From IMG/VR virus record IMGVR_UViG_3300043313_000488, positions 1-42,629 of that record: a stretch of DNA of 42,629 bases. One strand, given 5' to 3'. Origin of the DNA: a virus. Made by a program: the position numbers and the translations under genes. Positions within the stretch are counted from its first letter, which is position 1. The number at the start of each line of letters is the position of its first letter. This document shows positions 462 through 42,629 of this stretch, one piece after another. The notes beneath the pieces are model-generated. The model was not told the origin of the DNA and did not search any database. It saw nothing but the letters and a program-made list of their open reading frames with translations.

Positions 462-2408
462 ATGGGTTGGCCGGTTGTCGTCGTCGCCAAGGGCGGCATT
501 CCAGTTTCCGAGGCCGCGAACGGTCTCGGAACCCCGCTGTCGATCGCGGCCAACGGATACGGTACAGCCGTTACCGTAGTCGGCAGCGGCGGCCTTCCCG
601 TGCTCGGCAGTGGCGGTGGCGGAGCCGTCGCCCCCGGACTGCCGGTCACCATTTTCACGCAGGCTCCGGCCATCGCGGGAAGCGACGCCAACCCGAACGT
701 CAACTTCCGCACCATGTGCACTCTCGCGCAGGACATGCAGGGCGAGTTCAGGATCACGCTGCAGCCGGGAGCCAACCTGACCTGCATTGGCCTCGCGGCG
801 GGCGACCATGATGGTGGATTCTTCGCCAGCTCCAAGGTGCCGCTGGTGCTGGTGAAGTTCGCTGGCGCGGCAGGCTTCACCAATCAATCGACGCCGCAGG
901 TCTCCGACTGGACGCCGTCCGGCGCGCTGTCCACCATGAAGGCCGGCAACAAGTTCATCGTGTCGTTCATGACCGGACCGGCCGGACAGGGCCTTTGCGC
1001 CTACACCGCAGGCTCGACCAACTCGACGTGCCAGTGGCAGAGCGACGACGGCACCCTCTGGGACGATCAGACCATTGGCGGCTACAACGACATCGGAGCG
1101 TCGGTCTACGGCGTCGTCAAGGTCGAGACCCGCACGGCCGGCTCTGGCGGCGGCGGCAGTACCGAACCGCCGCCGGTGATAGTCGATAGCCTGATTCCGA
1201 TGAGCTTCAACGACCCGATGTTCACCGGTATGACCGAGCTGACGACCACAGTAACTCTTTTGGATGGGCAGAATCTGACGAGGACCAGTATTCAGGAGCG
1301 CAGTGGCCAGCCAACGCTGACGGTAGCCCCGACATCCGTCGTCACCTACTGTCGCATCAATTCCCGCGAGACTACGAGGATTGGCATCGCCAGCCCGGTG
1401 TTCGATCACTGCTACATGGAGGCGCTGGGCGAGCCGGGTGTCGGGGATCACGCCGATACCGTGCAGCACTTTGTCAGTACGGAGGAAGGCTCGCGCGAGA
1501 CTACCGTGACGTGGAAGAACTCCCACCTCGTCGGGCATCTGGTCGACGCTACCGCGACCTACTTCTGGGCCGACGACTGGGCCGGCAGGCTGGTGCTGGA
1601 GAACGTCATCATCAACGGCGGCCCGATCGGCTGCAAGTTCAACGCCGCACCGGACGCCTACACCTACATCGACTTCAAGAACGTGTTCTTCGTCGGGCCG
1701 TTCGGCAACGTGCCGATTCAGGACAACGCCAGCGGCAACAGCGCGTGGGTGATCGAGCGCTGGCAGAACGTCAAGATGGCGACCATCGTCGGCGGCGCGA
1801 TCGTCCCCGGCGTCGACGCGCCGCAGATGGTCTCGACGCCGCTGCCGACCAACCTCGTGACGCACTCCAGCGCGCTCGACCTGTGGACCGCGGCGGCCGT
1901 CACGGTGACGACGGGCATCGAGAAAGACCCGGTGTTCTGGGAGGCCGGTGCCGCCGATCGTTTCATTGAAACCGCGACTACCGCCGCACACGGCCTGACC
2001 TCGAACAGCATCAGCTTCACCAGCGGCACCGCCTACACCTTCTCGCTCTACGTCAAGAACGAGATCGCCGCCGCCAAGTTCTTGCAACTGGCGCTGCCGA
2101 CCGCCGCGTTCGGGGCCAATGCGTGGGGCAACTACGACATCAGCGCCATGACGGTGCAGACCAAAGGCTCGGCGGCGACCACTACCGTCAGGACGCCGAG
2201 GGTCGGCTCAATTCACGGCTGGTCGCGCGTCACCCTCACGGCCACGGCCACCGCCACGGCGGCGGGGACTGTGGCGATCTACGGGATTCCGGCCGGCACC
2301 TCGACGCGGGCCTTCTCGTATCTGGGAGCAGTCACCAACACCCGGCGGATCTGCAACGCGCAGGTCGAGACCGGGACGATCGACCGCCCTTACGTCAAAA
2401 CGCCATAA
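462..2408 (+). CDS. Tailspike-like protein: beta-helix plus carbohydrate-binding module
   Basis: The product is 648 aa; the ATG follows GGAG with 7-base spacing. Residues 1-60 form a repetitive module (VVVVAKGGIPVSEAANGLG type) often found at the N-terminus of alphaproteobacterial phage fibres. Residues about 60-240 are a beta-rich region closed by a GSGGGGS linker. Residues about 245-455 resemble a pectate-lyase-like right-handed beta-helix (IPMSFNDPMFTGMTE, ENVIINGGP, VFFVGPFGN). Residues about 465-648 resemble the CBM-like domain that ends many tail fibres (YTFSLYVKN, GWSRVTLTATA, AQVETG near the end). The beta-helix is clearly paralogous to the minus-strand protein at 21372-22268. Role: inferred adhesion to, or degradation of, host surface polysaccharide. 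I cannot identify catalytic residues. Its place ahead of the scaffold gene is unusual for a tailspike. Confidence 0.85.
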   Translation: MGWPVVVVAKGGIPVSEAANGLGTPLSIAANGYGTAVTVVGSGGLPVLGSGGGGAVAPGLPVTIFTQAPAIAGSDANPNVNFRTMCTLAQDMQGEFRITLQPGANLTCIGLAAGDHDGGFFASSKVPLVLVKFAGAAGFTNQSTPQVSDWTPSGALSTMKAGNKFIVSFMTGPAGQGLCAYTAGSTNSTCQWQSDDGTLWDDQTIGGYNDIGASVYGVVKVETRTAGSGGGGSTEPPPVIVDSLIPMSFNDPMFTGMTELTTTVTLLDGQNLTRTSIQERSGQPTLTVAPTSVVTYCRINSRETTRIGIASPVFDHCYMEALGEPGVGDHADTVQHFVSTEEGSRETTVTWKNSHLVGHLVDATATYFWADDWAGRLVLENVIINGGPIGCKFNAAPDAYTYIDFKNVFFVGPFGNVPIQDNASGNSAWVIERWQNVKMATIVGGAIVPGVDAPQMVSTPLPTNLVTHSSALDLWTAAAVTVTTGIEKDPVFWEAGAADRFIETATTAAHGLTSNSISFTSGTAYTFSLYVKNEIAAAKFLQLALPTAAFGANAWGNYDISAMTVQTKGSAATTTVRTPRVGSIHGWSRVTLTATATATAAGTVAIYGIPAGTSTRAFSYLGAVTNTRRICNAQVETGTIDRPYVKTP

Positions 2409-4307: not shown

Positions 4308-5330
4308 ATGGCCAATCTGACAACCAACGCCCAGTATCAGCAGATCCTGAGCATGTCGCTCGAATCTCGCTCCTCGACCTACATCGACCTCGTCTCCAAC
4401 AACAACGCGCTGCTCGCAGTCCTGAAACGTAAGGGCCTGTGGCAGACCTACAGTGGACCGCGAATCCGGCAAACCCTGCAGGTCAGCAAGCAGGTCGCGC
4501 AGTGGTATTCCGGATTCGATCAGCTATTGAATCCGGCGATCGACCTGTTCAACGACGCCTACTTCGAACCCAAGATGGTTGTGGTGCCCATCATCCTGTC
4601 GATGCAGGAGATCCTCAACAACGAGGGCGAGAACCAGCTCGAGGACGTGCTCGACAGCTACATGGAGGCCGCCGAACGCGCGCTGGAAGACGCGATGGAC
4701 GCCGGCCTCTACGGCGACGGCTCCGCCAACGGCGGCAAGCAGATCACCGGCCTCGCCACGGCGGTGCCGATCATCACCAATGCCGGCGTCTATGGCGGCT
4801 TCGATCGCGCCACGGCGACGATCTGGCAAACCAAGACTTACGACGCCAACTCGATGGTCCCGGCGCTCGGCACCCAAGTCAACGCCACCACCATCCGCCC
4901 GATGCTCAACTATATCATGACCAAGCAGTCACGCGGCCGCGACTACGCCGACCTGCTGCTGATGTCGCCCGAGCACTACGCGGCCTACGACGCCGCCACC
5001 GTGGCGATCCAGCGCCAGACCAATGAGACCTCGATGGGCAAGCTCGGCTTCTCGGCGCTGGAGTATATCGGCGGCGGCAAGCGCGCCGAGATCGTGCTCG
5101 ACGGCGGCATCGGCAGCAACATGCCGGCTAACACCACCTTCGGCCTCAACACAGATTCCTTGAGGGTGCGCTATCACCCCGGCCGCAACTTCGACAAGGT
5201 GTTCAAGGGCGACGGCATGATGCCGATCGACAAGGACGCTATTGCGCAGTTCATCGGCTGGATGGGTGAAATCACCATGACCAACCCGATGCTGAACTGG
5301 AGGTTCTACGACTCTAACCCTGCTGCTTAA
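4308..5330 (+). CDS. Major capsid protein
   Basis: The product is 340 aa, with GGAGAG before the ATG. The sequence has the look of an HK97-fold-type coat protein of podoviruses: an N-terminal helix (MANLTTNAQYQQILSMSLES), a long spine helix around residues 115-140 (LEDVLDSYMEAAERALEDAM), and the segment GLYGDGSANGGKQITGLATA. That Gly-rich stretch followed by GL is typical of coat proteins in this group. It lies directly after the scaffold, and a stable hairpin follows the stop codon. No cleaved N-terminal delta-domain is evident, which fits the separate scaffold gene. Confidence 0.9.
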   Translation: MANLTTNAQYQQILSMSLESRSSTYIDLVSNNNALLAVLKRKGLWQTYSGPRIRQTLQVSKQVAQWYSGFDQLLNPAIDLFNDAYFEPKMVVVPIILSMQEILNNEGENQLEDVLDSYMEAAERALEDAMDAGLYGDGSANGGKQITGLATAVPIITNAGVYGGFDRATATIWQTKTYDANSMVPALGTQVNATTIRPMLNYIMTKQSRGRDYADLLLMSPEHYAAYDAATVAIQRQTNETSMGKLGFSALEYIGGGKRAEIVLDGGIGSNMPANTTFGLNTDSLRVRYHPGRNFDKVFKGDGMMPIDKDAIAQFIGWMGEITMTNPMLNWRFYDSNPAA

Positions 5331-6835: not shown

Positions 6836-8291
6836 TGGCGCATGGGTGCCGTCAGGCGCGGCCTTCAATGTCGCGATGGAAGGCCCGCAAGGCCAACCGG
6901 GGCCTCCCGGCCCTCCCGGCACAGGCCTGCCCGGTCCCCCCGGACCTCCGGGCGCTGATTCCACTGTCCCCGGCCCTCCGGGCGCGACCGGCCCTCCGGG
7001 GATCGGAATTCAAGGGCCACCCGGCGCGGATTCCACGGTGCCGGGTCCGCCGGGAGCGACAGGGCCTGCAGGACCAACAGGGCCTGCAGGAGCAGCCTCC
7101 ACAGTACCCGGTCCTCCCGGCCCTCAAGGAGAGCAGGGCGAACCCGGCATCGATGGCGGGACCGTGCTCGTTGCGGACACACCGCCTGTTGGCGCGCAAG
7201 ACAACGCGCTGTGGTGGGAGAGCGACAGCGGCCAACTGTATTTTCGCTACAACGACGGCAACTCGACGCAGTGGGTGAGCGCGGTCCCGACAATCGACGA
7301 GGCGGCGCTCAAGGCTTACGCCGACAACACCGCGAAGCTCTACAGTGGCAAGAACTACATCATCAACGGCGCGATGATGATCAGTCAGGAGAACGGTGCG
7401 ACGGCCGGATCGGCGATTTATTATTATGCAGTTGATCAGTTCATGCTGGCGTCCAGTAACGCCGGTACGCAAACTGCCCAGCAGGTCGCAAGCCCGACGC
7501 CGGGAGGATCACTCAATCGTTTGCGGGTCACCGCCACGGTGGCGGACGCCTCGGTGGGAGCGGGCGATTATTCTCAAATCGTTCAGCACATCGAGGGGCT
7601 GCGCTGCGCCGATCTACGCTTCGGATCTTCTGCTGCGAAAACCATTACGGTGCAATTCGGCGTCAAGGCCCCTGCGGGCACCTACTGCGTAACGGTTCAG
7701 AACGTCGCGGGAAATCGCAGTTACGTTGCCGAATACACAATCTCGGCAGGTGAAGCCAACACCGACACGGTCAAGAGAATGACAGTTCCGGGCGACATGG
7801 TCGGGACATGGGCCTCCGACAATACATCCTGCATTTCGATCCACTGGACGCTGATGGTGGGCACGACCTTCCAGCAGGCGGCAGGGTCGTGGGGCACGGT
7901 CCAATATGCGCTCGGCTCCCCCAACCAGTACAACTTCATGTCCGTCGCCAACAGCGTGTTCGAGTTGTTCGACGTCTCGCTCACCGAAGGCGCGGTCGCG
8001 CCGCCGTTCAAGGTGCCGGATTACGCCAGCGAGCTGGCGGCGTGCAAGCGGTATTACACAAAAGATACCACCATTATTCAGGTCCCGGCGAGTGGCGTCA
8101 TGATCTCGTTGTACAACTTGAAAACAGAGATGCGAGCATCGCCTACTGTAGTGTTCAGTAATGTCACGTATACCCTTGCTTCCAGCCTAAATCTTAATTT
8201 CGGAGGGGTGCAAACACTTGGTTTACAACTAACGGCGTCATCCGCCAGCGGTTATGCGTCATTTACACTTGCAGCAAACGCGAGGCTCTGA
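6813..8291 (+). CDS. Tail fibre with collagen-like stalk (fibre A)
   Basis: The product is 492 aa. Residues about 24-112 are Gly-X-Y repeats rich in Pro (GPPGPPGADSTVPGPPGAT), giving a collagen-like triple-helical stalk. A fibre module follows (VGAQDNALWWESDSGQLYFR and QWVSAVPTIDEAA). Residues about 160-492 are a C-terminal receptor-binding-like domain beginning NYIINGAMMISQENG and ending LAANARL. That C-terminal domain is clearly paralogous to the one in fibre B (8571-9830), with INGxMxxSQE, IEGxRxAxLxxG, PGDxxGTWxxDNT, LxxCxRYxxx and a final ARL in common. Trimerisation and host binding are inferred from the family. The GXY repeats give repetitive DNA at about 6884-7155. The start lies inside the preceding gene. 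Confidence 0.85.
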   Translation: MPVVTGGSGAWVPSGAAFNVAMEGPQGQPGPPGPPGTGLPGPPGPPGADSTVPGPPGATGPPGIGIQGPPGADSTVPGPPGATGPAGPTGPAGAASTVPGPPGPQGEQGEPGIDGGTVLVADTPPVGAQDNALWWESDSGQLYFRYNDGNSTQWVSAVPTIDEAALKAYADNTAKLYSGKNYIINGAMMISQENGATAGSAIYYYAVDQFMLASSNAGTQTAQQVASPTPGGSLNRLRVTATVADASVGAGDYSQIVQHIEGLRCADLRFGSSAAKTITVQFGVKAPAGTYCVTVQNVAGNRSYVAEYTISAGEANTDTVKRMTVPGDMVGTWASDNTSCISIHWTLMVGTTFQQAAGSWGTVQYALGSPNQYNFMSVANSVFELFDVSLTEGAVAPPFKVPDYASELAACKRYYTKDTTIIQVPASGVMISLYNLKTEMRASPTVVFSNVTYTLASSLNLNFGGVQTLGLQLTASSASGYASFTLAANARL

Positions 8292-8569
8292 TGGCAGACT
8301 ATCAACTCACCGCAAACGACAGCGTGATCCGCACTGAGGACGGCGCGTGCATCCCCGCCGATCCCGCTAATCGTGATTACGCGGAGTATCTTCAGTGGGT
8401 CGAGGACGGCGGCGTACCCGATCCTTACGTGCCGCCTGAAGAAGTCCCGCAGCAGCCGACGCAAGAGCAAGAACTCTTGTTCGAGCACGAGAACCGCATC
8501 CTCGCGCTGGAAGGCCAGCCGCCGCTGTCACAGGAAGACTTCATCACGTCGCTGACGAAAGGCCGCTGA
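8291..8569 (+). CDS. Small fibre-associated protein
   Basis: The product is 92 aa. The ATG overlaps the stop of fibre A (TGATG), so translation is probably coupled. It carries DPANRDYAEYLQWVEDGGVP followed by PDPYVPPEE, a pattern common in small proteins encoded between phage fibre genes and at the ends of fibre proteins. The second half is acidic and helical. A fibre assembly or accessory role is inferred; no chaperone family can be assigned. Confidence 0.7.
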   Translation: MADYQLTANDSVIRTEDGACIPADPANRDYAEYLQWVEDGGVPDPYVPPEEVPQQPTQEQELLFEHENRILALEGQPPLSQEDFITSLTKGR

Positions 8570-8570
8570 C

Positions 8571-9830
8571 ATGGCCGCGCTCGACTTCCCGGCATCGCCT
8601 GCGGTCAACGACAGGTACCCGCTGCCTGCGGTGGCGGGACAGCCGCAGTATAAATGGGACGGCGAGAAGTGGACCACCGCGTCGCTCGACACCACCGTCG
8701 CGCCGCCGGCCACCGCGCTGCCGTTGATGGACGCCGCCACCGCCGTCGTCGGCGTTGCGACGAAGTACGCGCGCGAGGATCATGTTCATCCGAAAATTTA
8801 CGCCGCACCGTTCGATGCGCTCGCGTATAACGGGATGCAGATCAACGGCTCGATGGAAGTCAGTCAGGAGCTAACGTCCAGAACAACCGACGGCTATTTC
8901 ATTGATGGCTGGCGGGTGGATCATGTTGGCACTCTTGCTTTCGTAGCTGCGACATGGCCTGCGGACTCGACCACACCGGCAGGGTTTACGAAGTTCTTCG
9001 CGTTGAGCGTCACCACTGCGCAAGTGTCGATGGCAGCGGGGGAGTACGCTTGGATCTCTCATCCAATCGAAGGCTATCGTGTAGCGCGATTGGGGTGGGG
9101 CAAGGCCGGGGCGCAACCGATCACTATCGGGTTCTGGTCGATCCATCACAGGACAGGAGTTTATAGCGTTGCGGCGAAAAGCGGCAGCACTCGCTCTTAT
9201 ATCGCCACCTATACGCAAAATGTTGCCGACGTAGCTGAATATAAAACCATCACCATTCCCGGCGACACGACCGGGACATGGCCAAAAGACAACACGACGG
9301 GATTGAGTCTGGTTTTTTCAGTTGCCTGCGGCAGCACGTATACGGCTCCAGCCGCGAACGCTTGGCAAGCGGGTCACTATTTCGCTGCCCCCGGCCAGAT
9401 CAACGGTGTTGCCGCGACATCCGACATCTTCCGTATCACCGGCGTCGTCGTCCTCCCCGGCATCGAGGCTCCGTCCGCCGCGCAGTCGTCACTGATCATG
9501 CGGCCCTACGATCAGGAGCTGCTGACGTGTCAACGGTATTTTTACAATGGCGTGCCGCCTTTGCGGGGGATCGCGCTGTCTACTGTTTCAGCAGGGAGAA
9601 TGGCGGCTCGACATCCGGTTACGATGCGCGCCTCCCCGACGCCGACGCTGACAAGTCCGCTTCCAATATTAACGGGTGTCGGTTCTATTTCGACTATCAC
9701 CGCTCTGAGCAACTATTACGGATCAACGACTACGCTTGAACTCGATTGCACATCGACCGCGCTGGTGACCGGCCCGGCCGTTGTCTATATGGGCGCGGGC
9801 GGCAACGTCAACGTGGACGCGAGGCTGTAG
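8571..9830 (+). CDS. Tail fibre, paralogue of fibre A (fibre B)
   Basis: The product is 419 aa. The N-terminal module ALDFPASPAVNDRYPLPA followed by KWDGEKWTT is a known phage fibre entry module (LDFPxSP...Y.WDG.KW). Residues 70-90 hold an ATKYAREDHVHPK motif, typical of fibre linkers. From INGSMEVSQEL to the end (VNVDARL) the chain matches the C-terminal domain of fibre A. This gene has no collagen stalk, so the pair share a head domain on different stems. It could extend host range or form a branched complex with fibre A. Confidence 0.83.
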   Translation: MAALDFPASPAVNDRYPLPAVAGQPQYKWDGEKWTTASLDTTVAPPATALPLMDAATAVVGVATKYAREDHVHPKIYAAPFDALAYNGMQINGSMEVSQELTSRTTDGYFIDGWRVDHVGTLAFVAATWPADSTTPAGFTKFFALSVTTAQVSMAAGEYAWISHPIEGYRVARLGWGKAGAQPITIGFWSIHHRTGVYSVAAKSGSTRSYIATYTQNVADVAEYKTITIPGDTTGTWPKDNTTGLSLVFSVACGSTYTAPAANAWQAGHYFAAPGQINGVAATSDIFRITGVVVLPGIEAPSAAQSSLIMRPYDQELLTCQRYFYNGVPPLRGIALSTVSAGRMAARHPVTMRASPTPTLTSPLPILTGVGSISTITALSNYYGSTTTLELDCTSTALVTGPAVVYMGAGGNVNVDARL

Positions 9831-20653: not shown

Positions 20654-20695
20654 AAAGACGCCACAGGCATTTCCGCGACCCTGTGGCGTCTTTTT
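20654..20695. terminator. Strong bidirectional intrinsic terminator
   Basis: AAAGACGCCACAGG at 20654-20667 pairs perfectly over 14 bp with CCTGTGGCGTCTTT at 20680-20693 (12-base loop). A T-run follows on the plus strand, and the A-run on the other side gives a U-tract on the minus strand. It ends the plus-strand late operon (stop at 20577) and the minus-strand cluster (last stop at 20701). The bases 20578-20653 show nothing else convincing. Confidence 0.93.
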
Positions 20696-20700
20696 GTTGC

Positions 20701-20826
20701 CTATTTACCTTGCCCGCGGTGTCGGTAAGCCTGTCCCTCGCGATAGGCCTCGACCTTGCGGGGGTCGACCTTTTTGTCGTCGGGCATGCCGTAGGTCTCT
20801 TCAGTCGCCCTGTCGTCTTTTTTCAT
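20701..20826 (-). CDS. Small charged protein, unknown
   Basis: The product is 41 aa, very rich in Lys, Asp, Glu and Arg (MKKDDRATEETYGMPDDKK, ending RHRGQGK). The ATG at 20826 overlaps the stop of the upstream minus-strand gene by the ATGA arrangement, so translation is probably coupled; AAGGTG lies about 10 bases upstream. It is the last gene before the shared terminator. An upstream-extended reading exists but lacks coding character. No function is apparent. Confidence 0.6.
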   Translation of the reverse strand: MKKDDRATEETYGMPDDKKVDPRKVEAYREGQAYRHRGQGK

Positions 20827-21257
20827 GGCTGCGTCACCTTGGTTCGGAATGCTTCCGCAGTGGTGCGGAGATCCTTCGACACCGAGCTGGTTTCCTCGAT
20901 CTGGGCGTAGACCAAGTTGCCTTTGTCGCGAATCGTGTGCGCGACCTCCCCGAGCAGTTTCATGTCGCGGTCGCACTCCCGCAGCGCGTTCTCCAGCTTC
21001 TTGATGCGGTCCTGCACCGCCAGCCCCATGTCCTCGACCGCCTTGGCGGCGGCCTCGTACTGCGACTGCACCGCCTCCGCCGAGAGCCTCCCGATGTCGT
21101 TTGATTGAGTTGCGGGTTCGACTGTCGGCGGGTCTTCGTCGATGATGGTGCGGGGGTTGTCCCGGATCTCCTGTTGCAGGCTTTTGACGTCCTCAGTGGC
21201 GACGTTGGCCAGCTTCTGGAGGCTGCTGAAGTCCTTGTCGGTAAATTCCTTATTCAT
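20823..21257 (-). CDS. Coiled-coil protein, unknown
   Basis: The product is 144 aa, acidic and predominantly helical (LQKLANVATEDVKSLQQEIR, YEAAAKAVEDMGLAVQDRIK, KLENALRECDRD). It is likely a coiled coil with no membrane segment. The start at 21257 is set by an AAAGGGAA ribosome-binding site shared with three other genes of this phage. There is no recognised family. It shares the minus-strand cluster with the beta-helix protein just upstream. Confidence 0.75.
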   Translation of the reverse strand: MNKEFTDKDFSSLQKLANVATEDVKSLQQEIRDNPRTIIDEDPPTVEPATQSNDIGRLSAEAVQSQYEAAAKAVEDMGLAVQDRIKKLENALRECDRDMKLLGEVAHTIRDKGNLVYAQIEETSSVSKDLRTTAEAFRTKVTQP

Positions 21258-21262
21258 CACGT

Positions 21263-21272
21263 TTCCCTTTGC
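21263..21272 (-). promoter_or_regulatory. Shared leader motif GCAAAGGGAA (copy 1)
   Basis: The 10-mer GCAAAGGGAA lies 5 bases before the ATG at 21257. Identical copies precede the genes starting at 23423, 33690 and 31112. The AAGGG core can act as a Shine-Dalgarno sequence; the conserved flanks are unexplained. Confidence 0.75.
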
Positions 21273-21371
21273 TGGTTGGATAAAAGCGACCGCCGCCCCA
21301 CGGGTTGGGGGGTGGAGCGACGGCCTACCGTCCGATCTGGGCCGTGAGGGTAGAATCAGACGGGTCTCTCG

Positions 21372-22268
21372 TTACTTCTTTTCTTCCGGTTTCGTTCGTT
21401 CCGGCACCGGGGGAGCCTTCTTCGCCATCTCCTCCAGCTCGACGCCACTCGGCTTGTTGATCACCGCGCCGGGGACCAACTTGCCGTCGACGATGGTGGC
21501 GTGGCGCACGTTCTCCCACTTGGTGATTGTGATGCTGCCGCCGTACTCGCCCAGCAGGAACGGCTCGTAGCCAAACGGGCCGACGAAGAACACGTCCTTC
21601 ATCGATAGATCAATATGGGCACCGGTGTCGGAGTGAACGCGCAGGCCGAACGGGCCGCCGTTAAAAATTACGTTCTCGCAGGAGATGGTGCCGCCCCAGA
21701 AGTCCGCCGAAAAATAACCGGCAGTGGCGGCGGTGTTGAAGGCCCGGACGTGGGTGTTCTTCAGCGTCACCGAACCCTGCGCGTGAGGGGCGTAGGCTTG
21801 CAGCGTGTCGGCGTGATCGTTGCTGGTGCCCTTGGCCTCGAGGTAGCTGTCCTCGATGGTCAGGTTACCGCCGGTGATGCGGACGCACTCGCGCGACTGC
21901 ACCCGGCACGTCGTAATGCGGTTGGTGCCGTTGCAGGTGATCGACGGGTTGCCGCTCTGCTCCTTGATCGAGGTCTTGTTGAGGTTCTGGCCGTTGTTGA
22001 GCGTCAGCGCCGAGGTCTTCTCGGTCATGCCGGTAAAGATCGGATCGTTGAAGCTCATTGGAATCGTGCCGGTCGGCTCAGGCTCGGGCCCCGGCTCGGG
22101 AGTACCGCCGCCTTCGCCGCCCTCCTCGACGGCAGCTAATCTCTTGTCGAGTTCGACCAGCGCATTGACGATACCCTGCGCCAGCTCGTCGACGGCCGTC
22201 GCTCCTTCCGTCAGGCTCGAGGCCAGCTCGTCGGCGGCGTCGGTAATTGGCGTGGTGTTGACAGTCAT
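21372..22268 (-). CDS. Beta-helix (tailspike-like) protein, paralogue of 462-2408
   Basis: The product is 298 aa; the start has GGGAGA upstream. Residues 1-50 are helical and probably trimeric coiled coil (LVELDKRLAAVEEGG). A Gly/Pro/Glu linker (GTPEPGPEPEPTG) precedes residues about 68-270, a right-handed beta-helix-like domain. It shares with the tailspike IPMSFNDPxFTGMTE, GQNLxxTSIxExSG, HADTxQ, ENVIxNGGPxG, FFVGPFG, and WxNVxxATIVxGxxVPG. The phage-specific N-terminal module and the C-terminal CBM are missing. The tail is charged (PVPERTKPEEKK). It is transcribed against the late operon, among small unknown genes, so it may not be a virion part; a free polysaccharide-binding or -degrading protein is one option. 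Confidence 0.8.
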   Translation of the reverse strand: MTVNTTPITDAADELASSLTEGATAVDELAQGIVNALVELDKRLAAVEEGGEGGGTPEPGPEPEPTGTIPMSFNDPIFTGMTEKTSALTLNNGQNLNKTSIKEQSGNPSITCNGTNRITTCRVQSRECVRITGGNLTIEDSYLEAKGTSNDHADTLQAYAPHAQGSVTLKNTHVRAFNTAATAGYFSADFWGGTISCENVIFNGGPFGLRVHSDTGAHIDLSMKDVFFVGPFGYEPFLLGEYGGSITITKWENVRHATIVDGKLVPGAVINKPSGVELEEMAKKAPPVPERTKPEEKK

Positions 22269-22296
22269 TTAAGGGTCTCCCTGTTGATGCAATGTT

Positions 22297-22569
22297 TTAG
22301 TGTAGCGGTTTATCCCTTGGCGGTGGCACGGCCGTTTCCATGGCCTTCGTTATGGTAAAAAAATCCGTGACGTATTCCGCCATCATGCTGGCGACGCCGT
22401 CGCTGTCGCCATAGAGTATCCACAGTTTGGCGTGGGCCAGCATCAGGGCCGCGCAGGCCGCCTCCGGGGATTCCGCATTGTCCTTGAGTACTTTAATGAT
22501 GGCGTCCGCCAGCCGGACATTGTCCTTGCTGACCTTGTAGCCGATGCTTCCGCCGTCATCTTCGCTCAT
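22297..22569 (-). CDS. Small helical protein, unknown
   Basis: The product is 90 aa: a short acidic N-terminus (MSEDDGGSIGYKVSKDN), then helices (VRLADAIIKVLKDN, AACAALMLAHAKLWILYG, VASMMAEYVTDFF). No transmembrane segment is certain, though the middle is hydrophobic. The start overlaps the end of the small gene upstream (22556-22717). No family is recognised. Confidence 0.65.
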   Translation of the reverse strand: MSEDDGGSIGYKVSKDNVRLADAIIKVLKDNAESPEAACAALMLAHAKLWILYGDSDGVASMMAEYVTDFFTITKAMETAVPPPRDKPLH

Positions 22570-22717
22570 GGTTCTCAGCCCTTAATTTTTCAAGGATGCG
22601 GTCGAGCGCGGCCTCAAGCTCGTCTTCCGGCATCAGGTCTCGTAAATCACGCCAGATGGCCAGCACCAGATCAGCGTATTGCTGGGAAGTTAGACCATTC
22701 ATCGCCTGCACCGCCAT
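22556..22717 (-). CDS. Tiny helical protein (53 aa), unknown
   Basis: The product is 53 aa: it begins MAVQAMNGLTSQQYADLVLA and continues with acidic-basic helices (IWRDLRDLM, ALDRILEKLRAENHERR). An excellent ribosome-binding site, GGAGG with six bases to the ATG, supports it. The start overlaps the upstream gene by 19 bases and the stop overlaps the next start by 14, consistent with coupling in this compact operon. Function is unknown. Confidence 0.7.
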   Translation of the reverse strand: MAVQAMNGLTSQQYADLVLAIWRDLRDLMPEDELEAALDRILEKLRAENHERR

Positions 22718-23112
22718 GACCGGCCTCCGTTACTAACAATTTTTCTGAGATGATGACGCTCGCACACGTTACTTGGACGTTCCTCGCGCCGCTCTCGCTC
22801 TTCGACATGGCGACGGTGGCGCTTTATCTCTGGTTCGCCTGCTTGGTCTTGTCTTTCCGGCCTGACGACTGGTGGTGAAGGTTTCTCGAGCGGAATCACC
22901 CGAATTTCTGCCACGGTCGGCATCTTGTCCCAGCGTTCGTCGAACAGCGACAGCCGGTCGGTTTTCGGCGTGACCGATACCGGCTCCGCCGGCATCACCA
23001 CCCGCTTGGGGTGTTGTTCGTTCGGGCTGGAGGGGCGGGTGTACCCTGCCAGCGAGACGAGGCCGAACGAGACGACACCGAGCGTCGTCAGGCTGCGCAG
23101 CAGGATACTCAT
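22699..23112 (-). CDS. Putative exported or membrane-anchored protein with Cys/His C-terminal motif
   Basis: The product is 137 aa. Residues 1-24 look like a signal anchor or signal peptide (MSILLRSLTTLGVVSFGLVS, LAGY); there is no lipobox Cys. The middle is Pro- and charge-rich. The C-terminus VCERHHLRKIVSNGGRSWRC RR matches, from memory, a short motif seen in many small Bradyrhizobium phage and prophage proteins (CxRHxxRK...GxSWRCRR), possibly metal-binding or disulfide-forming. It could face the periplasm, for example as a spanin-like or superinfection-related protein, but nothing proves that. It starts by TAATG overlap with the upstream gene. Confidence 0.68.
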   Translation of the reverse strand: MSILLRSLTTLGVVSFGLVSLAGYTRPSSPNEQHPKRVVMPAEPVSVTPKTDRLSLFDERWDKMPTVAEIRVIPLEKPSPPVVRPERQDQAGEPEIKRHRRHVEERERREERPSNVCERHHLRKIVSNGGRSWRCRR

Positions 23113-23423
23113 TACGCTTTCAGCTTTCTGGATTCCGCAATTCGAATACCCTCACGCACACTGTGCCGCCAGTCCTTCGGGTAGTTATCCTCAAGGTCGT
23201 GGACGACGCCTTCGGCGTCCCTGACGCCGAGCAATTGCAGCGCCGTCCGTATCTTGATGCGCCAGCCGTTGCGAAGGGCGTCTTCCCTCGGCTTCGGGTT
23301 GCCTTCCCACCAGACCCGCCTCGACTTGTCCCAGTAGGCGACCTGATAGAGGCCGTCCCCCATCACCGAGACATGCACCCAGCGCGAGGCGATCCGCACC
23401 GCCTCCTTGACCGACATGTTCAT
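23112..23423 (-). CDS. Small phage protein, unknown
   Basis: The product is 103 aa, beginning MNMSVKEAVRIASRWVHVSV and rich in Trp/Arg (WDKSRRVWWEGNPKPRED, KDWRHSVREG). The start at 23423 is chosen because it follows the GCAAAGGGAA leader by 7 bases; the longer in-frame extension lies on the leader itself. Mixed alpha/beta, basic. No family is recognised, although VKEAVxIAxxWV recurs in small phage proteins. Confidence 0.68.
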   Translation of the reverse strand: MNMSVKEAVRIASRWVHVSVMGDGLYQVAYWDKSRRVWWEGNPKPREDALRNGWRIKIRTALQLLGVRDAEGVVHDLEDNYPKDWRHSVREGIRIAESRKLKA

Positions 23424-23430
23424 GGTCGTT

Positions 23431-23440
23431 TTCCCTTTGC
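23431..23440 (-). promoter_or_regulatory. Shared leader motif GCAAAGGGAA (copy 2)
   Basis: An exact copy of the 10-mer, 7 bases before the ATG at 23423. It identifies the start codon of that gene and links it to the three other genes with the same leader. Confidence 0.75.
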
Positions 23441-23456
23441 TTCGATTCAATTGCGA

Positions 23457-23993
23457 TCAGGCGTTGGCCTCTTCCGGCATCGGAATCGACCACTCGCCTT
23501 TTTTGACGACGGGCCGCGGCCGCTGCGGGACACCGAGGCGGACGATGCGGGGCTTGTTGTTATTGGGGCGTTTCTTGACCGGAGATCCGGCCTTGATCTC
23601 TTCGCGCCGGCGCTTGCCGAGGCGTTCACGCGCGGCCATGGTGCGGCCCGCCGTAGGAGCCGACAGCGTCAGCCACTGGGTCGGCGGCGAGCCTTTCTGG
23701 TCGAACAGGTCGCGAACCCGGCAGGCCTTGGCCTTCATGATGTAGTGCTTGGCGTAAGGCGGGTTGCCGCCCTTGCCACGAAATACAATGTAGGCGTCCT
23801 TGCCGCCGCCGACGAAGGCGTGAAGCACATCCCTGTTATGCTCGATGCCGCGCGCGATGATGCACGACGACGGGTGGCCGAGCACGGACTTGCGGCGGTC
23901 GGTCTTGTAGGCTTGGAAGCTGTAATCCTCAGTGGCTTCTTCGCACGGCCACCGCTCCCCGGTTTCCGGGTTGGTATAGAATCTCTGCATCAT
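23457..23993 (-). CDS. Basic phage protein, unknown (first gene of minus-strand cluster)
   Basis: The product is 178 aa. The N-terminus (MMQRFYTNPETGERWPCEEA) and middle (GHPSSCIIARGIEHNRDV, GGGKDAYIVFRGKGG) look beta-rich. The C-terminal third is very basic (RLGKRRREEIK, VKKRPNNNKPRIVRLG) and could bind nucleic acid. GGAG lies 7 bases before the ATG at 23993. It leads the minus-strand cluster and has a promoter-like sequence just upstream. No family is recognised. Confidence 0.65.
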   Translation of the reverse strand: MMQRFYTNPETGERWPCEEATEDYSFQAYKTDRRKSVLGHPSSCIIARGIEHNRDVLHAFVGGGKDAYIVFRGKGGNPPYAKHYIMKAKACRVRDLFDQKGSPPTQWLTLSAPTAGRTMAARERLGKRRREEIKAGSPVKKRPNNNKPRIVRLGVPQRPRPVVKKGEWSIPMPEEANA

Positions 23994-24053: not shown

Positions 24054-24107
24054 GCGGCTTGTACAGATAAGTTGACAGGATCAAACCCCATCAGTCCTTT
24101 TTATAAT
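24037..24107. promoter_or_regulatory. Operator-like inverted repeats and partial rightward promoter elements
   Basis: GCTTG (24037-24041), nine bases, then CAAGC-G-GCTTG (24051-24061) form overlapping inverted repeats across the -35 of the leftward promoter. Further right are a consensus TTGACA (24072-24077) and TATAAT (24102-24107). Their 24-base spacing is too wide for one sigma-70 promoter, so the rightward promoter is not resolved. Confidence 0.4.
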
Positions 24108-25321: not shown

Positions 25322-26049
25322 TCCAGACCTATCCCCGGCATTCGCCCTCGAGCCTGAACATGTTCGCGATGAGTCCCGCGCTTTTTGTCTTGGAGCGCGT
25401 CCTCAACCTCAAGCAGGTGGTGGGCGCACCGGCCCACCGCGGCACCGGCGTCGAGGCCGGCGTCGCAGTCGGCCTCAAAGATCCAAAGGCGTCCGACGAG
25501 GAGTGCATCGACGCCGCCTACATCGCCTACGACACCGCGTCGGCGCTGTCGCCCGACAGTCGCAAGGAAGCGTACCGCGAATCGATTCCCGGCATGGTTC
25601 GCCAAGCGCTCGAGGAGTTGCGGCCCTACGGGATTCCGACTGCGACGCAGGGCCTGATCGAGCAGACGATCGACGGCCTGAGCCTGCCGATCGTCGGCTA
25701 CTTCGACTTCATGTGGGAAAAGGACGGCCTGATTATCGATCTCAAGACCAGCGGAACGATGCCGTCCGCGATCAAGGCCGCACACGCGCGACAGGTGGCG
25801 TTCTACACCACGGACAATCAGGTCGGTTTGCTGACATACGTCACGCCGAAGAAGTGCTGCACCTACCAGCTCGAGCGGGCGCGCGAGCACAAGCAGGCGC
25901 TGATCAGGCTGGCGCGCAACGTCGAGCAGTTTCTCTCGCTGAGCGACGACCCGCTTTATTTTACGAGGATCACCGCGCCGGATCTGGATTCCTACCTGTG
26001 GTCCGCGCCGCACATGCGCGAGCTGGCCTATCAGTACTGGAAGATCTGA
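25318..26049 (+). CDS. PD-(D/E)XK nuclease (RecB/Cas4-like)
   Basis: The product is 243 aa from ATG 25318, overlapping the ruvC stop. The N-terminus has SPSSLNMFAMSPALFVLERV, as in Cas4/RecB-family nucleases (SxSxLxxFxxCPxxF). Active-site residues visible are Glu46 (HRGTGVEAG), Asp130 (VGYFDFMW), and Asp141/Lys143 (IIDLKTSG), followed by HARQVAFY. Two Cys (KKCCTY) occur late, but the four-Cys iron-sulfur set of Cas4 is not evident. It is a likely exonuclease for recombination, replication or host DNA degradation. Confidence 0.85.
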   Translation: MIQTYPRHSPSSLNMFAMSPALFVLERVLNLKQVVGAPAHRGTGVEAGVAVGLKDPKASDEECIDAAYIAYDTASALSPDSRKEAYRESIPGMVRQALEELRPYGIPTATQGLIEQTIDGLSLPIVGYFDFMWEKDGLIIDLKTSGTMPSAIKAAHARQVAFYTTDNQVGLLTYVTPKKCCTYQLERAREHKQALIRLARNVEQFLSLSDDPLYFTRITAPDLDSYLWSAPHMRELAYQYWKI

Positions 26050-26879
26050 TGAGTCATTACCTGCTGCCGGACGGCCACGTCCAGATCGCCTTTAGCGGCG
26101 GGCGCACGTCGGCCTTCATGTTGCACAAGATCCTTGAAGCTAACGGCAACCTGCCGGATCGGGTTGTGGTGTCGTTTCAGAACACCGGGCGGGAAATGCC
26201 GCAGACACTGGACTTCGTGCAGGAGGTCGGGGAGCGGTGGGGCGTCAATATCGTGTGGTTGGAATACCGCGCGACTGCTCCGTTCTATGAGCAAGTCAGC
26301 CACAACAGTGCATCACGCAACGGCGAGCCGTTCGAGGCTATGATTATCAAGAAAAATTACCTGCCAAACCAACAAGCACGTTTTTGCACTATTGAATTGA
26401 AAGTGCGAACTGCGAAGCGGTATTTGATGTCGCTGGGTTGGAAACACTGGACGAACTGTGTTGGTATTCGAGCCGACGAACCACATCGCTTGAACAAGCC
26501 TCCACCAAAGGATCGCTGGACAGTTTGGACACCCTTGGCCGAGGCAGACGTTGGCCGCCAGCATGTCACTGAATTCTGGAGCAGGCAGCCGTTCGATCTC
26601 CGTCTGCCGAATGTGAAAGGCAATTGCTGGCTTGGGAATTGCGACGGCTGTTTTCTCAAGTCCGAGGCCAGTGTTGCGGCCTTCACCCGGGACTACCCGG
26701 AGCGCGCGATCTGGTGGGAGCGCATGGAGGCGCTGATTTCACCGGCGACAGGGTCGGCAAACACGTTCTCGAAACGCTACGCGCGAAGCGACATGCGCCA
26801 GTACATGGAGCGTCAGGGTGATTGGGCGTTGTCGACCGAAGGCAGTCTTTGTCAAAAAGATCATGGGGAGTGTGTCTAA
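26049..26879 (+). CDS. PAPS-reductase-like PP-loop ATPase
   Basis: The product is 276 aa; the start overlaps the nuclease stop (TGATG). VQIAFSGGRTSAFML is a PP-loop (SGGxxS, residues 16-21). FQNTGREMPQTLDFV, QQARFCTIELKVR and CVGIRADEPHRL match the phage PAPS-reductase/alpha-hydrolase family. Cys113, Cys193, Cys198 and Cys201 (NCWLGNCDGCF) could hold an iron-sulfur cluster, as in DndC/APS-reductase relatives. Base composition dips toward AT at about 26280-26480, unlike the neighbours. A role in sulfur transfer to nucleic acid is possible, but no Dnd partner genes are seen; phage members of this family are mostly uncharacterised. Confidence 0.82.
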   Translation: MSHYLLPDGHVQIAFSGGRTSAFMLHKILEANGNLPDRVVVSFQNTGREMPQTLDFVQEVGERWGVNIVWLEYRATAPFYEQVSHNSASRNGEPFEAMIIKKNYLPNQQARFCTIELKVRTAKRYLMSLGWKHWTNCVGIRADEPHRLNKPPPKDRWTVWTPLAEADVGRQHVTEFWSRQPFDLRLPNVKGNCWLGNCDGCFLKSEASVAAFTRDYPERAIWWERMEALISPATGSANTFSKRYARSDMRQYMERQGDWALSTEGSLCQKDHGECV

Positions 26880-39240: not shown

Positions 39241-40546
39241 CGACTGGGTGATGGGCGCACTGGCGGCGCAGGACGCCTACCAGCCGGTCGTGAAGCCGTG
39301 GACAAAATACGACGTCGCCCAACTCCAGAGCGACGACCTCGACCGCATGCCGTTCGGCGTCGGCAGTCCTGCGGAGAGCGCGCATGCGCCATCAGGCATC
39401 GATCAGCTCGTGCGCAGTGCCTACACCGGTCTCGGCGAGACCGCCAAGGGTGCGTTTACCGAATCGGAACGGCTACGATCGGGCGAGGGCTACAATGCCA
39501 AGCCGGCCGTCGAGGCCGCACTAATGACGATGGGCGGACCGCTGGTCGGCGGCACCAAAGCGACCGCCGAGGGCGGCGTGGTGTTGGGGTCTGGACCGAT
39601 CAAGGCCTATCACTCCTCGCCGCACACGTTCGAGAAGTTCGACACTTCGCGGATCGGCACTGGAGAGGGCGCGCAAGTCTATGGTCACGGCCTGTACTTC
39701 GCGGAGAACCCGGCCGTAAGCGGACGGGGCGGAGAATACTGGAATCAATTCCTGCATCGTTTCGAAGGGCCGGAACGCAAAGCCGCGACAGCTCTGCAGC
39801 GCGAGGGATTTGATCGTGAAGCTGTTATGGCTGATCTGCAAAAGAGTCTTGCCGACGTAACCGATCACATGAAGCACCGAAAAATCAGCGATCCTCTGAT
39901 GGCAGAGGCCGATCGCGCTCACTGGCAGAAGCTGAAAGATAATTGGCAGACACAATACGATTTACTGAAGAGCGGCGGCCCGGTCGGCCCGCGCACCTAC
40001 GAGGTCGACATCCACGCCGATCCCAAGCACATGCTGGACTGGGACAAGCCGATAAAGGACCAGCCGGAAGTCTTGGGCAGGATTCGCGACAGCAATGTGA
40101 TTCTGCCATATCTGCGGGACACGTTTGAGAAAAATGCCGAGGCTGGCATCAAGGGAAGCAACGCCTACAAGTCATATATCGGTAGCGGCGATGTCGGGGC
40201 GTCTCAGCTTTTACGCGATCATGCCGGCGTCCCCGGCATCAAGTATCTCGATCAGGGATCGCGCAACCCTGCGAAGATGTCGGAGCTTGCGGCTGATCTG
40301 GCGCAGTATCGCGAAGCCGCAAAGCATTGGGCGGCAACTGGCAACGAGCAAAAACTGGCAATCGCACAAGGCCAAATTAATGCACTCGAAAAGCGGCTGA
40401 ATCAAACCAACAACTACGTCATCTTCGATCCCAAGATTATTGACATCCGCAAGATGTACGGCATCGGCGGCATCGGCGCAGGGGTAGGCACGGCCTACGG
40501 CATGGGTGGTCTCGCCGCGCAGGATCATTACGGAGAGAGGCTGTGA
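39230..40546 (+). CDS. ADP-ribosyltransferase-like (ART-PolyVal type) virion-module protein
   Basis: The product is 438 aa from ATG 39230, which has GGAGG five bases upstream. Residues 1-120 are Ala/Gly-rich. From residue about 124 the sequence IKAYHSSPHTFEKFDTSRIG, TGEGAQVYGHGLYFAENPAV, then TYEVDIHADPKHMLDWDKPI and NNYVIFDPKIIDI at the end, matches the ADP-ribosyltransferase-like domain of phage polyvalent proteins (YHGSPHxFxxFD...GTGEGAQxYGHGLYFAE...VxFDxxxI). His128 and the Tyr of YGHGLYF are candidate NAD-binding residues. The end is Gly-rich and hydrophobic (GIGGIGAGVGTAYGMGG). It could be injected with DNA to modify a host protein. Convergent with the HNH gene; the two ends overlap by 19 bases. 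Confidence 0.78.
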   Translation: MMADDWVMGALAAQDAYQPVVKPWTKYDVAQLQSDDLDRMPFGVGSPAESAHAPSGIDQLVRSAYTGLGETAKGAFTESERLRSGEGYNAKPAVEAALMTMGGPLVGGTKATAEGGVVLGSGPIKAYHSSPHTFEKFDTSRIGTGEGAQVYGHGLYFAENPAVSGRGGEYWNQFLHRFEGPERKAATALQREGFDREAVMADLQKSLADVTDHMKHRKISDPLMAEADRAHWQKLKDNWQTQYDLLKSGGPVGPRTYEVDIHADPKHMLDWDKPIKDQPEVLGRIRDSNVILPYLRDTFEKNAEAGIKGSNAYKSYIGSGDVGASQLLRDHAGVPGIKYLDQGSRNPAKMSELAADLAQYREAAKHWAATGNEQKLAIAQGQINALEKRLNQTNNYVIFDPKIIDIRKMYGIGGIGAGVGTAYGMGGLAAQDHYGERL

Positions 40547-41238
40547 CGAGATTTTGGTCGTCTGTTAGCGGCTTGTTCTTTTCGTGTTACCCACTTGCAA
40601 TTGGCTTTCGAATATCCGCGCGCATTGTTTGTTCGATCAAGCGTAAGACCGGGAGGTCGCTCACCCATATCGACGAGAAAATTCGCAAACTTGCGCCAGC
40701 GTTTGCAGACTGTAATGCCGCGTCCGCCATAGTAGCTGTAATACGTGGCGTTTGGATTACAGCATCGCTGAATCATAGCTTCCCAAGAAGCATAGGTAAG
40801 AGAGTTAGATCCAATGCGAGCGTGTCCATGAATAACACGTCTTTTCAAGCAACCGCATGAAGCGGTGTGGCCGCTTATCAGGTGACCAGATTGGGTAATT
40901 GTTTCTCTGCCGCAATCGCAAAGGCAGCGCCAACGCACTTGGTTATCTTTTGTACGACCGACATCTTTGGTGACTATCAGCATGCCAAAGCGTTGATTGA
41001 GGAGATCAACCTTGTTTGAAGGCGCGCGGCCATATTCGGCATACAAGTCATGGCCGCGCTCAACCCGTAGACAGCCGCATGATTGTGTCTTGCCGCTCTT
41101 TAAACTGGCGGCGTCGACTATGGTTTTGGTCCCACAAGTACAATGGCAATACCAATGAACACGATTCCTGCTCGTGTCACGACGGATGACGATCAAGCGA
41201 CCGTACTGGTGACCGGTGATATCAATGAATGCGGGCAT
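40528..41238 (-). CDS. HNH homing endonuclease with two zinc-ribbon modules
   Basis: The product is 236 aa. Two tandem Cys modules come first: YCHCTCGTKTIVDAASLKSG with TQSCGCL, and RCLCDCGRETITQSGHLISG with TASCGCL. The C-terminal nuclease-like part is YASWEAMIQRCCNPN, YYGGRGITVCKRWRKFANFL, and GLTLDRTNNARGYSKANCKW. This architecture (W.C.CDCG...SCGC; SWxxMxxRCxNPN; YGGRGIxVCxRW; LDRxxNxxGYxxxNCxW) is typical of phage HNH homing endonucleases. The gene is on the opposite strand to its neighbours and visibly lower in GC, so it is a mobile insertion. It separates the ART-like gene from the IPT genes. Confidence 0.88.
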   Translation of the reverse strand: MPAFIDITGHQYGRLIVIRRDTSRNRVHWYCHCTCGTKTIVDAASLKSGKTQSCGCLRVERGHDLYAEYGRAPSNKVDLLNQRFGMLIVTKDVGRTKDNQVRWRCLCDCGRETITQSGHLISGHTASCGCLKRRVIHGHARIGSNSLTYASWEAMIQRCCNPNATYYSYYGGRGITVCKRWRKFANFLVDMGERPPGLTLDRTNNARGYSKANCKWVTRKEQAANRRPKSRHSLSP

Positions 41239-41956: not shown

Positions 41957-42005
41957 CTACGCTGTCAACCGGAAATGGCCGGGAATGGCCGATAAAGGAA
42001 CCCAG

Positions 42006-42629
42006 ATGCCACAAGCAAGAAACGACCAAGACAACAAGACCGACATCAACCAGCCGCCGCAAGGCCGCCCCCTTAACCAAGTCGGGCAGGGCGGCCAAGG
42101 CCCCGGCCAGTTCGACCAGCACGGCAACCTGACCGGGCAGAGCGAACAGGAGCAGGACAAGCAGGACAAGGGCAAGGCGCTGCGTCCCGGCCAGACCGCG
42201 AGCCTCGCCCAGCAGGAGCAGGAGCAGTCGCAGAAGCGCCAGCAGGACGCTTGGGAGGAAGCCAACCGGCGCGAGAAGGACAACAACCCGGCCACCAAGG
42301 ACCGGCGGGCCGCAGGGTCTTGGTACACCAAGGAGAACCAGCCCGGGCTGCACCCGGCGAACCAGCCGGACCCGGATTCCAAGCTCAACAAGGGCACGAG
42401 GCTCGATCTCGAGGATCTCACCGGCAATCCGGGGCACCGCGGCGTCAATCCCGACGCCCCAGCCAACAGCATCAACCCGCCGACCGACCCGAAAACCGGC
42501 CGCTTGGAATCCATCAACGAGCCTCCCGGCATCGAGCAGAACTGGCCGAAAGCCGGCGAGCGCCAAGGCAAACAGGGCAAGGAAGTCCCGGCCGGCGGCT
42601 CGGAGTGGAGCATCAACGAGCCTCCCGGC
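42006..42629 (+). CDS. IPT/Ig-like virion protein, N-terminal part (continues at position 1)
   Basis: This is the first 208 codons of a gene that continues in frame at base 1 (after removing the 69-base overlap) and ends at 450. MPQARNDQDNKTDINQPPQG is followed by a long Gln/Asn/Gly-rich, probably disordered region with a helical stretch (SLAQQEQEQSQKRQQDAWEE) and Pro/Asn-rich linkers. SINEPPG occurs twice around the junction. The only recognisable domain is the C-terminal IPT-like fold described at 1-450. A long extended or decoration protein is inferred from composition and neighbours. Confidence 0.83.
   Translation, partial: MPQARNDQDNKTDINQPPQGRPLNQVGQGGQGPGQFDQHGNLTGQSEQEQDKQDKGKALRPGQTASLAQQEQEQSQKRQQDAWEEANRREKDNNPATKDRRAAGSWYTKENQPGLHPANQPDPDSKLNKGTRLDLEDLTGNPGHRGVNPDAPANSINPPTDPKTGRLESINEPPGIEQNWPKAGERQGKQGKEVPAGGSEWSINEPPG
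42561..42629. repeat. Terminal direct repeat, copy 2 (circular overlap)
   Basis: Identical to bases 1-69; see that entry. Removing one copy gives a 42,560-bp circle. Confidence 0.95.

Follow-up and report, generated by a model that had tools for sequence, protein, structure and literature searches.

What is a protein with the β-helix of a virion spike doing on the opposite strand of a phage genome, outside the structural genes? The question is raised by a viral stretch of 42,629 nucleotides (IMG/VR record IMGVR_UViG_3300043313_000488; its full length is hereafter referred to as the window), in which an earlier note, made from the letters alone, had singled out the products of two genes:

462–2408, plus strand: P0002, a 648-residue, virion-type spike with a homologous β-helix
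21372–22268, minus strand: P0001, a 298-residue protein composed of a helix and a β-helix

The gene for P0001 and its setting

The β-helix that the note had seen in both proteins is indeed common to them. BLASTP aligned residues 62–267 of P0001 with residues 235–450 of P0002 at 47% identity over 216 residues (172 bits, E 2e-53), in agreement with the intervals proposed in the note (68–270 and 245–455), and it returned no alignment outside the β-helix. P0001 is therefore without both the N-terminal module (residues 1–234) and the C-terminal module (residues 463–647) of P0002, just as the note had it.

The open reading frame for P0001 is a real gene, because it has an ATG start preceded by a Shine-Dalgarno-like GGGAG, is matched by orthologues in two other phage contigs (L003 and L006), and bears the mark of purifying selection. 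The orthologues are 78% (L003) and 68% (L006) identical to P0001 over their full available length, the L003 contig stopping within the gene, and both have the same layout of helix and β-helix. The dN/dS ratio is 0.17–0.26, an approximate figure given that dS is high; it is about 0.1 in the N-terminal 50 codons, where dS is near saturation, and the linker and tail are relaxed.

We predicted the structures of both proteins, and each contained a β-helix. For P0001, AlphaFold2 (with a 25-sequence alignment as input; pLDDT 85.9) yielded a single helix of 43 residues (residues 8–50) and, from residue 82 to residue 269, strands forming a confident right-handed β-helix. For P0002, residues from about 250 to 460 folded as a β-helix (mean pLDDT mostly 74–96 per block), with nearly all of the rest at 55 or lower. 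The parts of P0001 are as follows:

22119–22247, minus strand: N-terminal helix, residues 8–50, a putative oligomerizing coiled coil, kept in L003 and L006
21459–22064, minus strand: section between the N-terminal helix and the C-terminal tail
21798–21818, minus strand: DHADTLQ motif, residues 151–157, possibly forming a catalytic or metal site with R122, E127, and D189
21375–21458, minus strand: charged C-terminal tail with a short helix, residues 271–298

The note had described a coiled-coil stem. A helical stem is what is predicted, and its sequence is about 80–84% identical among the orthologues; that it forms a coiled coil is plausible and no stronger than that, because six of the eight heptad core positions are kept but 6% of shuffles reach the same score, and the call is based on the AlphaFold2 model together with this weak heptad score. 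The N-terminus of P0001 had no counterpart among all the window reading frames compared.

The window begins and ends with an exact 69-base repeat (1–69 and 42561–42629), across which the open-ended frames at 41985–42560 and 1–450 join in frame to give 341 codons, so the assembly is probably circular and complete. The joined 341-residue protein, which is encoded just upstream of P0002, is rich in Gln and Gly and ends in a domain that matches NF058597. The portal protein shares 49% identity with its counterpart in Rhizobium phage RHph_I3_18 and 35% with the one in Bradyrhizobium phage ppBjS10J-1. The structural genes run rightward from 462 to about 20577, with the terminase and portal genes at the right end. 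As the note had claimed, P0001 belongs to a separate transcription unit with small accessory genes, a minus-strand block (20704–23993) that runs head-on toward the structural operon, with a strong hairpin terminator where the two meet:

20654–20698, no strand assigned: 14-pair terminator hairpin separating the two converging operons (z −6.8 on the plus strand, −5.5 on the minus strand)
20704–20826, minus strand: small gene downstream of P0001
20823–21257, minus strand: small gene downstream of P0001, helical product
22297–22569, minus strand: small gene directly upstream of P0001, without a family match
22699–23112, minus strand: protein with a hydrophobic N-terminus and a CERH...GRSWRCRR end
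23112–23450 as listed, with a likely start at about 23423, minus strand: further gene without a convincing family match
23457–23993, minus strand: further gene without a convincing family match

To the right of the block, a small HTH-like gene at 24106 (assigned by eye) opens the rightward early genes. The orthologue in L006 comes after exonuclease and SSB-like genes (also by eye), is preceded by a homologue of the 22699–23112 gene and by a small gene in a position equivalent to that of 22297–22569, and, as in the window, converges on the Gly-rich fiber end of the structural operon; in L003 the homologue of the 22699–23112 gene lies directly upstream of the β-helix gene. Thus, the gene for P0001 is outside the structural operon in three of three phages (the window, L003, and L006), two of which are fragments. 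The corresponding boundary in RHph_I3_18 carries an integrase gene and small genes.

The 22699–23112 protein accompanies the β-helix gene in all three phages; as a means of assigning a host it proved uninformative, with one weak match in 150 genomes. Elsewhere in the window, an HNH endonuclease gene (40528–41238, minus strand) sits on the opposite strand within the structural region, in the kilobase of lowest GC content (0.53), and may be a homing insertion; a related gene is found in L006 at 7302–7838. A PAPS-reductase-like auxiliary gene is located at 25503–26879 (plus strand), and a putative PAPS reductase is annotated in RHph_I3_18 as well.

The β-helix family and its putative active site

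P0001 has no match among the Pfam, NCBIfam, and PHROG models, and a minority of its relatives touch the generic Beta_helix and Pect-lyase_RHGA_epim models. A tblastn search of 50,697 phage records for relatives in cultured phages returned nothing for either P0001 or P0002, and a sequence search of the PDB with P0001, P0002, or the family profile returned nothing convincing. Relatives were found in several IMG/VR fragments and in genomes of Nitrobacteraceae belonging to the genera Bradyrhizobium, Nitrobacter, Rhodopseudomonas, and Tardiphaga. The family is narrow: the domain was present in six of 199 sampled genomes of the host family and in two of 297 genomes sampled from the order, both of which were also among the finds of the family sample.

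The bacterial domains are 41–54% identical to that of P0001 and have the same invariant residues. Most of them make up the N-terminal 210 residues of Ig-repeat proteins of the T1SS type (790–1019 residues), the C-termini of which resemble the ends of secreted glycanases and esterases, and the others are single-domain proteins with signal-like N-termini. The bacterial proteins have signal peptides or else Ig repeats with a T1SS C-terminus, whereas P0001 has a helical stem and no signal peptide or other export signal in its sequence. Among the neighbors of the bacterial genes are glycosyltransferases, a polysaccharide deacetylase, a sugar epimerase, Wzz, and a T1SS ABC/HlyD pair. When such cluster neighbors were used as queries, a non-self neighbor match was found within 8 kb of 16 of the 19 domain loci, as compared with two of 20 equally long control stretches taken from three of the genomes. 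Because of the genomes in which the bacterial relatives reside and their exopolysaccharide-cluster context, we infer that a Nitrobacteraceae exopolysaccharide may be the substrate and that such bacteria may be the hosts. A literature search on this domain in Bradyrhizobium exopolysaccharide found no direct match.

Several genomes harbor two or three copies of the domain, often in one stretch (for example, at 8001–8621 and 13482–14100 in L009 and at 2180835–2217044 in contig C1 of genome G132), and the copies within such genomes differ in architecture, single-domain and Ig-repeat forms both being represented.

The domains of P0001 and P0002 align with the family from end to end, and both keep its invariant residues (R, E, D, H, D, Q, D). 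In the 25-sequence alignment the invariant columns include R122, E127, D151, H152, A153, D154, Q157, N171, and D189. In a second alignment, to which further phage members had been added and from which some near-identical bacterial members had been dropped, R122, E127, D151, H152, D154, Q157, and D189 were still invariant, and the D, H, D, and Q of the DHxDxxQ motif are invariant in 22 family members. Residues E127, Q157, and D189 are separated by intervals of 30 and 32 residues, each about one coil of the β-helix, and could line one of its faces. This conserved patch argues for catalysis or metal binding, as opposed to a decoy, and the decoy that the note had offered as an option is without support because the invariant residues are retained in P0001.

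As judged by Foldseek, PL3 pectate lyases from C. bescii took the first 15 places among the PDB matches of P0001 (best E 5.8e-5, probability 1.00), with a moderate TM score (0.40/0.58) that signifies likeness at the level of the fold only. P0001 is accordingly predicted to have the small right-handed β-helix of the PL3 enzymes (3T9G/4YZ0). Later matches were to the KSM-P15 lyase and, more distantly, to the LKA1 tailspike and AlgE4, and a viral fold library gave nothing better than E 0.003. P0001 folds like a PL3 enzyme and yet is not assigned to PL3, because comparison of the family with a PL3 profile by hhalign gave a probability of 4% (E 0.0098; the profile was built from six PL3 domains fetched from genomes and aligned) and because the DKxxQ motif with the catalytic lysine, present in the fetched PL3 loci, is absent from both family alignments (A3 and A6), which have DHxDxxQ in its place. 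Likewise, PF03211 had no match in the window or among the family members of alignment A3. An alignment by eye had set DHADGIQ on the strand that carries DKVFQ in PL3; hhalign placed it elsewhere, and the alignment by eye is given no weight here.

Two further known systems invite comparison. Phage tailspike depolymerases such as LKA1 gp49 have a polysaccharide-acting β-helix fold like that of P0001, the fold match being weak (E 0.049), but P0001 has no N-terminal segment in common with virion proteins of the window, as an anchor would be, and its gene lies outside the tail genes. The other is TspA of RcGTA, a β-helix enzyme that acts on biofilm polysaccharide and is a detachable tailspike encoded, like P0001, outside the particle gene cluster; its authors hypothesize that it may also be freed at lysis (PMC13420450). 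The likeness between TspA and P0001 is one of description; TspA has a β-sandwich N-terminus, a cap, a C-terminal trimer domain, and baseplate binding (PMC13420450), whereas P0001 consists of the helix and the β-helix only.

Elsewhere in phages, the gene with this domain usually sits amid virion genes (L004, L008, L045–L047, and L050). Two adjacent genes of L008 (1020–3375) have a common N-terminal peptide, MSFYLSKRPEGAP, ahead of different β-helices, an arrangement that suggests a common particle anchor to which different heads can be fitted. In L045 (7625–10630 of IMGVR_UViG_3300046665_000548, a very long contig of 607,744 bases that is classed as viral), the domain forms the C-terminal part of a 1001-residue protein; its gene adjoins DnaJ-like and ClpB-like genes (by eye), and neighboring large genes have an N-terminal segment in common, as if one anchor served several proteins. 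The N-terminus of P0001 is unlike this arrangement of L008 and L045.

P0002 and the history of the domain

Just downstream of the gene for P0002 come those for a virion structural protein, placed as a scaffold gene would be (at 2956), and for the major head protein (at 4308). Two of its domains can be delimited:

1194–1811, plus strand: β-helix domain, residues 245–450, with the invariant residues retained
1848–2402, plus strand: GTA_spike_fiber domain (NF048003), residues 463–647

The second of these is the part that the note had called a CBM. It matches the NCBIfam GTA_spike_fiber model with scores of 65.5 and 69.7 bits against a cut-off of 36, and no such domain was found in P0001, which had no NCBIfam match. 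RcGTA head spike fibers bind capsule (PMC10218006). P0002 resembles them in its C-terminal 185 residues and in the position of its gene next to head genes, and differs from them in having a β-helix in addition. Because of the domain match and the gene's place beside scaffold and capsid genes, P0002 is more likely to be a head spike fiber than the tailspike envisaged in the note; the name of the model is not in itself proof of a head position, because the model also matches in five of 14 control genomes and so is not exclusive to head spikes. In L004 and L050, a stand-alone version of the β-helix domain precedes scaffold-like and capsid-like genes (by eye), making these the positional equivalents of P0002.

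Are P0001 and P0002 paralogues, as the note had supposed? Their domains are homologous, and duplication within this phage is a possible origin. In a tree of 29 domains, P0001 grouped with its L003 and L006 orthologues, and P0002 adjoined them weakly (support 76/65) on a long branch; in a tree of a reduced set, the support for joining P0001 and P0002 was 73/41. Over the domain, moreover, P0001 is nearer to a Bradyrhizobium homologue (54% identity) than to P0002 (48%). A grouping of P0002 with L004, L008, and L050 was not rejected (AU p 0.13), whereas a single clade of all phage members was (AU p 0.0024), a rejection in keeping with the domain having passed more than once between phages and the exopolysaccharide clusters of hosts.

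A role for P0001

Among the three options of the note, the free depolymerase is the best supported because of the exopolysaccharide-cluster relatives, the intact putative active site, and the location outside the structural operon. With the homology, fold, conserved residues, host context, and separate, conserved gene location computed, we infer catalysis, the substrate, the oligomeric state, release at lysis, and absence from virions, and we favor, tentatively and at slightly less than even likelihood, the view that P0001 is a small oligomeric enzyme that cleaves or modifies exopolysaccharide outside virions after its release at lysis. The N-terminal helix would bundle the subunits, and the β-helix would bear the conserved acidic site (R122, E127, DHAD..Q at 151–157, and D189). 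Made from the accessory operon outside the structural genes, the protein would accumulate in the cytoplasm and, once freed at lysis, would cut or modify the host exopolysaccharide around the burst cell, whereby progeny could escape the slime and reach new cells. For its part P0002, probably a head spike fiber, would target that polymer from the virion during entry.

The main rival, on account of the virion-gene location of most other phage members, would make P0001 a further spike of the virion, its helix docking on the head or tail and its β-helix binding or cutting exopolysaccharide at entry. We consider this rather unlikely. That P0002 bears the same domain in a spike speaks for it, and the conservation of the helix would fit a virion anchor too; yet P0001 is on the opposite strand, converging on the structural operon, its orthologue has the same early-type position in L006 and lies outside the structural genes in L003, and no N-terminal segment is common to P0001 and any protein of the window. 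The argument from strand and location is an indirect one, drawn from three genomes of which two are fragments. Nor need a β-helix be an enzyme, as such domains are able to bind without cutting. Like the capsule-binding fiber of RcGTA, P0001 might be a noncatalytic glycan binder, a lectin or decoy that keeps progeny from being trapped by covering exopolysaccharide or debris, or that blocks rival phages, but an invariant set such as R, E, D, H, D, Q, D usually marks an active or metal site and the host relatives resemble secreted enzymes, and we regard this reading as improbable.

More improbable still is that P0001 acts within the infected or lysogenic cell as the product of a moron gene that alters the host exopolysaccharide and excludes other phages. 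The block lies at the boundary where the temperate relative RHph_I3_18 has its integrase gene and small genes, and P0001 has as a neighbor the protein with a hydrophobic N-terminus; against this, P0001 has no signal peptide, whereas its single-domain bacterial relatives do, and no integrase was noticed in the part of the window reading frames that was scanned. Finally, the lack of both flanking modules of P0002 could be taken to mean that P0001 is a decaying, functionless duplicate of the spike gene, but this scarcely credible idea is already contradicted by orthologues of identical layout in two other phages and by a dN/dS ratio well below 1.

If P0001 is indeed a free enzyme, the two proteins could constitute a paired set, with the head-spike copy acting on slime at entry and a dedicated soluble copy clearing slime at exit, a more doubtful proposal than that of the free enzyme itself. 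Were it correct, P0001 would be a phage-encoded soluble enzyme of the biofilm matrix, from an enzyme family that has no curated name. The case is of interest because recent authors have stated that, to their knowledge, phages do not have soluble biofilm-matrix enzymes, to which a soluble P0001 would be a counter-example. P0001 is a short, foldable, testable protein whose family is unnamed by curated libraries in the members scanned and whose likely substrate is tied to the exopolysaccharide of Bradyrhizobium, Nitrobacter, Rhodopseudomonas, and Tardiphaga. It thus provides a way to find out whether phages make soluble matrix enzymes that are distinct from their particles.
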